The notes under the pieces: generated by a model
Databases searched by the model: none
Told to the model about the DNA's origin: nothing
Seen by the model: only the letters and a program-made list of their open reading frames with translations
Position numbers and translations under genes: made by a program
Virus record (IMG/VR): IMGVR_UViG_3300010883_000028
Span: 1-61,075 of that record
DNA: 61,075 nt
Reading direction: 5' to 3' (one strand)
Origin: a virus
Shown here: positions 8,685 to 42,103 of the stretch, piece by piece
Layout: each line of letters starts with the position of its first letter
How positions within the stretch are numbered: the stretch's first letter is position 1

Positions 8685-8692
8685 TATTTATA
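8685..8692 (-). promoter_or_regulatory. T4-type late promoter box TATAAATA for gp8
   Basis: The minus strand reads TATAAATA. With T4 spacing the start site falls near 8679, leaving a ~30-nt leader before the gp8 ATG at 8649. Confidence 0.6.
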
Positions 8693-27458: not shown

Positions 27459-27487
27459 ATTATACTCCATTTTAGATGGGTTGTCAA
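27459..27487 (-). promoter_or_regulatory. Host-like promoter for SleB hydrolase (class with CCATAAAAAGAC upstream)
   Basis: Minus strand: TTGACA (27487-27482), 17-nt spacer, TATAAT (27464-27459). The -10 box ends 7 nt before the ATG at 27452. The upstream block ACTTTTACCATAAAAAGAC is nearly identical to that at the bS21 promoter. Confidence 0.75.
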
Positions 27488-27511
27488 GTCTTTTTATGGT
27501 AAAAGTGAAAA

Positions 27512-27692
27512 TAAGGTGGTAGGTTATTCTGTTGCTAAGAAACCTACCGAAACTCCATTAACAATTACTGCTTACGCCGCAATTGCCATAGGTGCAAAAT
27601 TATCGTTTGCGTTTGTAGTTTTTGACCAATTACGCAGTCACCCGACAGTTCTACTCTTACCTATCTCCATCAGTCGATCCTATTTCGCCCCC
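27512..27692 (-). ncRNA. ssrA: tmRNA, coding (messenger) piece of a permuted two-piece tmRNA
   Basis: The mature 5' end is predicted at 27692: GGGGGCG (27692-27686) pairs over 7 bp, with one G-U, to the acceptor strand CGCCTCC at 27825-27819. Then come the D-arm-like AGGATCGACTG and a resume codon with tag ORF at 27610-27572, encoding ANDNFAPMAIAA and a stop. CTGTCGGGT (27648-27640) can pair with ACCAGGCAG (27854-27846) in the acceptor piece as helix P2. An 8-bp hairpin (27518-27525/27541-27548) marks the 3' region. The approximate 3' end is a guess. Function: rescue of stalled ribosomes and tagging for proteolysis. Confidence 0.88.
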
Positions 27693-27794
27693 ATCATAAT
27701 TACTTGATTTACCAATACCTGATAAATATTTGATAGGAACTTCTTCCTTAATATTAAATCGTTTGATAAACCAATTAACTAATTTCTCAAACAT
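27657..27794 (-). CDS. Possible small ORF inside the tmRNA intervening segment (45 aa)
   Basis: ATG at 27794 has GGGAG 7 nt upstream and encodes MFEKLVNWFIKRFNIKEEV ... ending after EIGSTDGDR. It begins in the segment between the two tmRNA pieces and runs 36 nt into the coding piece (27692-27657). The N-terminal amphipathic helix and good ribosome-binding site suggest a real gene, but the overlap with structured RNA argues for caution. It would be translated only from unprocessed precursor. Confidence 0.35.
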   Translation of the reverse strand: MFEKLVNWFIKRFNIKEEVPIKYLSGIGKSSNYDGGEIGSTDGDR

Positions 27795-27814
27795 ATGTAA
27801 CTCCCAAGTAATTA

Positions 27815-27878
27815 TGGTGGAGGCGATGGGTACTGCCCCCATGTCCTGCCTGGTCTTTGGTTTGTATCAACAAACTGT
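27815..27878 (-). ncRNA. ssrA: tmRNA, acceptor piece of the permuted two-piece tmRNA
   Basis: The 3' end is CGCCTCC-A-CCA (27825-27815). It is preceded by a T-arm-like 5-bp stem ATGGG/CCCAT with 7-nt loop GGCAGTA (27842-27826); the loop is not canonical, as is usual in permuted tmRNAs. A 6-bp hairpin GTTTGT/ACAAAC lies near the 5' end. It is upstream of the coding piece in transcription order, which is the circularly permuted arrangement of alphaproteobacteria. The 5' end is taken from the predicted promoter. Confidence 0.85.
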
Positions 27879-27883
27879 AATCT

Positions 27884-27914
27884 TATTTATATCATACTGA
27901 AACAACTTTGTCAA
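27884..27914 (-). promoter_or_regulatory. Dual promoter for tmRNA: host-type and T4-late boxes overlapping
   Basis: Minus strand: TTGACA (27914-27909), 17-nt spacer, TATAAA (27891-27886), which is also the first part of a T4-late box TATAAATA (27891-27884). The RNA could thus be made both early and late in infection. Confidence 0.7.
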
Positions 27915-27928
27915 GTGATTTTTCAATA

Positions 27929-28330
27929 TTATGTTTCAATCCCTGGTGGTTTGATACCTTTAAATATATTTGTATTATATTCTGCACCTGTGCCACTAGA
28001 TAATACGCAAGTTGTCATGGATGGTGCATGATACTCTAATAAAGTTGAACTACCAGATGTAGGATTTGCTAATATTTCTATAATAGTTCCTTCTGCTGAA
28101 ATCCACCTAACAACTCCTACTTCACCATGTGATGATAATAGTTTTCCTTTAACTGCTTCATAACTGTCATTGGTACATGATACTGGTTTATGTAAACGAA
28201 ACATTTCACCTGTAAATGGTTGCTCTGGTTTTTCAGTATCTTTAGGTAATTCTTCTCCAAATGCAAAACCACAAGATATTAATACTATCCATATGGTAAC
28301 ACAACCTATTAGATATTTATCTATTTTCAT
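27929..28330 (-). CDS. Secreted protein, unknown (133 aa)
   Basis: 133 aa with a signal peptide (YLIGCVTIWIVLISCGFAFG) and a small beta-rich mature domain containing two Cys (KPVSCTNDSYEAVKG; PSMTTCVLSSG), possibly a periplasmic disulphide-bonded domain. It lies upstream of the tmRNA and downstream of the exonuclease gene. No family recognised. Periplasmic location is predicted from the leader only. Confidence 0.6.
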   Translation of the reverse strand: MKIDKYLIGCVTIWIVLISCGFAFGEELPKDTEKPEQPFTGEMFRLHKPVSCTNDSYEAVKGKLLSSHGEVGVVRWISAEGTIIEILANPTSGSSTLLEYHAPSMTTCVLSSGTGAEYNTNIFKGIKPPGIET

Positions 28331-42026: not shown

Positions 42027-42103
42027 CTGTCCGTAGTTCAGATGGATAGAACAACTGCCTTCTAAGCAGTAGGTCGCAGGTTCGAGTCCTGCCGGACAGG
42101 CCA
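42027..42103 (+). tRNA. tRNA-Arg (UCU)
   Basis: Full cloverleaf with encoded CCA: acceptor CTGTCCG/CGGACAG, D-arm GTTC/GAAC with GGATA, anticodon stem ACTGC/GCAGT with loop CTTCTAA (anticodon TCT), T-arm GCAGG/CCTGC with loop TTCGAGT. Reads AGA/AGG, the Arg codons most used by this AT-rich phage. Confidence 0.96.

Follow-up and report, generated by a model that had tools for sequence, protein, structure and literature searches.

A permuted tmRNA gene in a T4-like phage that probably carries a small protein gene between its two pieces

The locus and its permuted tmRNA

The window analysed here, a viral contig of 61,075 nucleotides, is a fragment of a T4-like phage genome that encodes gp32, gp59, a gp33-like coactivator, PhoH and baseplate proteins. 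On its minus strand lies a tmRNA gene, followed directly on the 3' side by a cell wall hydrolase gene (PF07486; 26925..27443, minus strand) and then by a gene for a T4 gp33-like late-transcription coactivator (PF16805; 26689..26934, minus strand), which marks a T4-like operon common to phage Melnitz. The hydrolase gene possesses its own 12/12 sigma-70-like promoter (27487-27459), and a cell wall hydrolase gene is found beside the tmRNA in relatives as well, for example at loci L123-L145. The upstream neighbour of the tmRNA is an ORF of 133 amino acids (27929-28330, minus strand), for which there is no confirmed homologue among viral contigs and no Pfam match. Elsewhere in the window a stand-alone tRNA-Arg(TCT) is encoded (42027-42103), and Melnitz also has one.

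Two types of promoter element precede the tmRNA. A -35 element, TTGACA (27909..27914, minus strand), stands 17 nt before a TATAAA hexamer, and the combination TTGAC..TATAA is present upstream of 105 of 209 phage tmRNAs. Closer to the gene is a TATAAATA box (27884..27891, minus strand), which recurs upstream of 153 of these 209 permuted tmRNAs of phages, in most cases at a distance of 54-70 nt from the start of the acceptor 3' strand, and which we take to be a match to the consensus of the T4 late-promoter -10 element. The same octamer occurs in the window at positions 8692, 13960, 15344 and 52137 (minus strand), among others, in several cases just 5' of structural ORFs, as would be expected if phages of this group use a T4-like late promoter. 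For the tmRNA of Melnitz an early promoter has been proposed (PMC9004378), in contrast to the late-type element seen here.

A preliminary description made from the sequence alone had interpreted the locus as a two-piece, circularly permuted tmRNA, and independent searches bear this out. ARAGORN calls a permuted tmRNA at 27481-27908 on the minus strand, with the tag ANDNFAPMAIAA followed by a stop codon, and the Rfam covariance models RF01849 (alpha_tmRNA; 27518-27918, 118.7 bits, E = 9e-32) and RF04321 (tmRNA_permuted; 27572-27875, 107.8 bits) both exceed their gathering scores, which served as cut-offs (50 and 47, respectively). The coordinates agree with the proposed order of acceptor piece, intervening segment, coding piece and tag. 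The acceptor piece of about 64 nt (27815..27878, minus strand), as delimited by ARAGORN and, from 27875, by RF04321, has an undefined 5' end and consists of the P2 5' strand (27854-27846), the T-arm (27842-27826) and the acceptor 3' strand (27825-27819), so that its 3' end reads CGCCTCC-A-CCA (27825-27815), with a discriminator A and an encoded CCA (27817-27815). The coding piece (27512..27692, minus strand), placed by ARAGORN, Rfam and covariation and with an undefined 3' end, begins with the acceptor 5' strand GGGGGCG (27692-27686), GGATCGAC and the P2 3' strand (27673-27667), and continues through a pseudoknot region and the tag ORF to a 3' hairpin (27548-27518). The tag reading frame predicted by ARAGORN (GCA...TAA; 27572..27610, minus strand) starts with an alanine resume codon and has a hydrophobic C-terminus that ends in Ala-Ala. 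Tags at some other phage loci are less conventional: four of them (L064, L076, L099, L115) have an unusually long predicted tag, ANDNALSNVTFVDFSAPVTAVNEDFALAA, and short tags of unusual sequence, among them ANFNEYALAA and ANYNNFALAA, also occur.

The pairings were examined across 189 unique phage sequences and compared with shuffled columns. The acceptor pairing of 7 bp holds in 1322 of 1323 cells, and the G.U (in DNA, G.T) alanine identity pair within GGGGGCG/CGCCTCC is invariant (189/189). In the T-arm stem all 945 cells are paired, and covariation is strong, with many compensatory changes. The P2 helix originally proposed, ACCAGGCAG with CTGTCGGGT, proved to be wrong: only 0.52 of its cells are paired, which is not above shuffled columns, and no single pair rises clearly above the null. 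The P2 of Rfam and ARAGORN, which shares one strand with that proposal, pairs CCAGGCAG with CTGATGG (27673-27667), directly after GGATCGA. Its core covaries (one pair at 0.99 versus 0.47 in shuffles, another at 0.95 versus 0.70), and its outer two pairs are weak (0.41 and 0.54 paired). Taken together, the data support a phage-encoded, circularly permuted tmRNA of the alphaproteobacterial type that has a plausible tag and lies in a T4-like operon; judged from its sequence features, the gene is probably functional in the phage.

The tag is indeed of the alphaproteobacterial type, with ANDN...AA tags found across the sampled alphaproteobacteria. As an indicator of the host it is weak: the tag type is widespread, and Melnitz, which has such a tmRNA, infects a Methylophilales strain, so that the tag does not fix the host. 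The further suggestion that the phage supplies its own ribosome rescue stands with respect to the tmRNA and falters with respect to its protein partner, as a search of this record and of 18 further tmRNA phage records, several of them possibly fragments, revealed no smpB gene. Host SmpB would therefore presumably be needed.

The intervening segment and its reading frame

The segment between the two pieces, 122 nt long (27693..27814, minus strand) and expected to be absent from the mature tmRNA, is closed by a helix of 10-11 bp formed by its own ends (27814-27805 with 27706-27697). Just inside lies a feature that the preliminary description overlooked. A Shine-Dalgarno sequence, GGGAG (27801..27805, minus strand), is located 6 nt before an ATG (27794) that opens a reading frame of 45 amino acids, MFEKLVNWFIKRFNIKEEVPIKYLSGIGKSSNYDGGEIGSTDGDR (27657..27794, minus strand), of which codons 1-34 are in the segment and the last 11 codons and the stop (27657) are inside the tmRNA coding piece. 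This ORF is longer than any in 100 shuffles of the segment. Substitution rates were estimated from independent pairs after removal of the tmRNA overlap and of the 3' arm of the closing helix; since the binomial test takes differences as independent, all p values given here and below are approximate. Relative to its homologues the window ORF has a dN of 0.29-0.50 and a dS from 1.0 to saturated, and the family to which it belongs (A1) has a dN/dS of 0.32 (p = 8e-4, based on no more than four independent pairs). No Pfam or PHROGs family accounts for the ORF, and tblastn searches of 50,697 phage records with the peptides of the window and of families B and C returned chance-level matches or none, the corresponding Melnitz ORF being too divergent for detection. 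On the evidence of these comparisons and of those described in the next section, the intervening segment is probably protein coding. An otherwise near-identical tmRNA at another locus (L130) has an insert of only 32 nt, which indicates that the RNA can do without the ORF.

Inserts of related phage tmRNAs

In a scan that did not select for length, 104 unique phage intervening segments were recovered among the matches listed; 44 of these are at least 100 nt long and 33 contain an ORF that belongs to one of the supported families. A per-segment shuffle test of ORF length gave p <= 0.05 for 52 of 189 segments; because this test is weak for short inserts, we relied on dN/dS at the level of families. 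The ratio is 0.06 in family B (p = 1e-26), 0.16 in family C (p = 2e-28; 5.4 in an alternative frame of C used as a control), 0.18 in A2 (p = 1e-4), 0.19 in D, 0.30 in F and 0.33 in A3, and several unrelated families have an excess of changes at third codon positions. By these measures, purifying selection acts on several ORF families that are unrelated to one another. Their stop codons fall between -15 and +59 nt from the start of the coding piece, nearly all of them between -15 and +42, with one two-gene insert as the exception: families C, A2, A3, F, G, E and J terminate inside the insert, and families A1, B, D and H terminate in the coding piece, at +13 to +42. The size of an insert thus appears to be set by its ORF.

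Of 80 family C hits, 66 are clearly inside a segment, at a constant distance to the coding piece in all 66, and most of the rest, for which one tmRNA flank is visible, are probably inside too. Of 72 family B hits, 47 are in a segment and 24 lack tmRNA pieces at their flanks, although ARAGORN calls a tmRNA around one of these 24 (L509). Homologues outside tmRNA genes were found for family J (14), the L018 type (11) and family I (10), including two stand-alone L018-type sequences (L149/L150) at 98.7% identity. Searches of Pfam and PHROGs with the nested ORFs gave chance-level matches only, apart from a near-threshold hit of the L081 ORF to DUF2061 (E = 2e-4, 22.3 bits against a cut-off of 23.1). 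The two-gene insert, at L016 (minus strand, tmRNA span 1982-2668), measures 499 nt and contains two tandem ORFs of 34 amino acids (KYLSG type) and 120 amino acids, each with a Shine-Dalgarno sequence, and RF04321 still recognises the surrounding tmRNA. Several family C loci (L032, L043, L048, L070, L079 and others) have a second short ORF, of the G-D-x-D-E-E-P-x-S type, that precedes and overlaps the membrane-protein ORF (dN/dS 0.45, p = 0.005) and may represent a leader or a means of translational coupling.

Cellular alphaproteobacterial tmRNAs (RF01849, RF04321; Caulobacter) resemble those of the phages in gene order, acceptor pairing, T-arm and tag type; they differ in their intervening segments, which in our sample, one that names no SAR11 genomes, are mostly about 5-70 nt long and noncoding. 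A search of 84,980 genomes yielded only 12 segments of 100-130 nt between such flanks, noncoding in appearance except for one (L378). That one, in a metagenome-assembled genome labelled Muricauda, holds a phage-type family B insert and is probably a phage contig misbinned into a bacterial genome. Many long phage inserts likewise have the appearance of noncoding structured RNA; to hold a coding sequence is therefore one of the uses of the site and does not define it. Six isolated phages of Rhodobacterales and other alphaproteobacteria (RcXuper, MD18, Cp1R7A-A1, vB_RpoS-V10, vB_EliS-L02 and RcSimone-Hastad; L593-L598) have segments of 88-111 nt resembling structured noncoding RNA, that of MD18 with a tRNA T-arm-like GCGGTTCGAAACCGT.

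The two ends of the segments pair in a helix that extends the acceptor stem. Among 177 segments, helices formed by a segment's own ends average 10.0 bp, versus 4.8 bp when ends are swapped between phages, and compensatory pairs are seen at most of positions 0-10. In five phage pairs the tmRNA halves are at least 95% identical and the inserts are unrelated. The halves are 100% identical over the stretches compared in two of these pairs, L096/L126, with inserts of families A and B, and L072/L310, with a noncoding 71-nt insert and one of family D. Near-identical halves with unrelated inserts imply that the segment acts as a cassette that can be exchanged.

A probable protein gene within a tmRNA gene

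We consider it likely that the locus is a permuted phage tmRNA gene whose intervening segment was colonised by a small protein gene, a reading that rests on comparison of RNA structure, coding selection, the closing helix, cassette exchange and stand-alone homologues. The expression of such a locus, as we envisage it, would start from a single shared promoter yielding a single precursor RNA, in which the acceptor stem joins the two tmRNA pieces and the covarying helix at the insert ends lengthens that stem. The insert would then form a large loop with the ribosome-binding site just inside the closing helix. The tRNA-processing enzymes of the host, RNase P and a 3' nuclease, which have been suggested to mature two-piece tmRNA (PMC3985003), would free the acceptor piece, the coding piece and the insert; the mature tmRNA would act with host SmpB, and the insert would be translated from the precursor into a functional small phage protein. 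In families with a stop inside the insert, the excised insert could also be translated. Unconstrained as RNA and flanked by two highly conserved halves, the spacer could be swapped by homologous recombination, which would make it a cassette site.

The position of the stop codon suggests a different role for the nested ORF in part of the collection. Where the stop is in the coding piece, as in the window and families A1, B, D and H (+13 to +42), cleavage of the precursor would part start from stop. In the window the cut predicted from the coordinates falls in frame, exactly after codon 34 (GAT|GGG), which would turn the released insert into a non-stop message that tmRNA could tag. That the insert serves as a built-in non-stop message, tagged by its own tmRNA to give feedback or a self-limited peptide, is nonetheless unlikely, and it is equally doubtful that ribosomes crossing the acceptor strand would also slow tmRNA maturation; families C, A2, A3, F, G, E and J stop inside the insert, and non-stop translation therefore cannot explain nested ORFs in general. 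We accord the same low likelihood to a bifunctional RNA/protein locus, in which the precursor would be both mRNA and pre-tmRNA and the insert, in the window's family, non-stop and self-tagged; if true, peptide output would be coupled to tmRNA maturation in that family.

The tmRNA itself could mainly compete for host SmpB or redirect tagging rather than rescue ribosomes. Without an smpB gene in any of the 19 phage records host SmpB would be shared, and the tmRNA of phage DS6A, which consists of little beyond a tRNA-like domain, resembles a tmRNA inhibitor (PMC11915505, PMC4131195). Here, in contrast, the tag frame is intact to its Ala-Ala end and the tRNA-like domain has the features of a working tmRNA, and competition as the main role seems improbable. 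It is less probable still that the insert is a noncoding spacer with a fortuitous ORF, conserved through RNA structure required for processing. The conserved closing helix, the many inserts that look noncoding and structured and the short noncoding segments of the sampled cellular genes would fit such a spacer; the third-position excess and dN/dS ratios down to 0.06 in unrelated families (against 5.4 in the alternative frame), the stand-alone homologues with up to 98.7% identity, the Shine-Dalgarno sequence before the ATG and the two-gene insert of L016 would not. Least probable of all, and highly so, is a nonfunctional remnant of a host gene, left for instance by imprecise excision: ssrA often serves as an integration site, and remnants of this kind are known (PMC9004378), but both pieces are complete here, the helices covary across 189 unique phage sequences, promoter elements are present and the gene neighbourhood is kept in relatives.

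Two-piece phage tmRNAs of the alphaproteobacterial type have been published, and the tmRNA alone is therefore not new. In one survey 53 of 133 distinct phage tmRNAs were two-piece, and Melnitz and pelagimyophages, like the phage studied here, combine a permuted tmRNA of alphaproteobacterial type with a T4-like marine phage genome (PMC9004378). Melnitz shares with the window a tmRNA directly upstream of the gp33-like coactivator gene and an intervening segment, of 142 nt, that holds an ORF of the window type with KYLSG...YDGGE; its record annotates no CDS in that segment, and none is mentioned in the accessible part of its description (PMC9004378). It differs in the glutamine riboswitch that adjoins its tmRNA, none having been found beside the tmRNA of the window at E values up to 1. 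A literature search, with many subscription papers outside its reach, returned no report of protein genes in a tmRNA intervening segment. A protein-coding intervening segment in a tmRNA gene, common to many related marine phages, is thus apparently new, with priority not proven.

The spacer of a permuted tmRNA gene is considered to be RNA that is thrown away. Marine phages would often have in it a compact, exchangeable slot that takes small protein genes or a tRNA, hidden in a gene annotated as RNA only. Coding inserts would help to account for the length of phage spacers and point to an overlooked reservoir of conserved small phage proteins; they also raise the question of how translation of the nested ORF influences the maturation of the tmRNA around it, and vice versa.

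Protein genes are found within other structured-RNA genes. The intervening sequence of Coxiella 23S rRNA with its S23p ORF likewise places an ORF within a structured-RNA precursor, with the differences that the RNA is another one and that the sequence is described as a selfish element whose protein has been suggested not to be made (PMC4990558). Group I introns in tmRNA, a few with homing endonuclease genes, also put a protein gene inside a tmRNA gene, but they interrupt the T-loop region and self-splice (PMC11915505), whereas the phage insert sits at the natural junction of the permuted gene. For the intervening segment itself, a survey of 97,179 sequences mentions a tRNA and a repetitive element and, in its accessible part, reports no protein genes there; the tRNA, a single case, is a tRNA-Ala in a nominally archaeal permuted tmRNA (PMC11915505). 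A phage counterpart is present at L206:4677-4811, where a segment of 110 nt contains a complete tRNA-Arg(TCT) resembling the stand-alone tRNA of the window.
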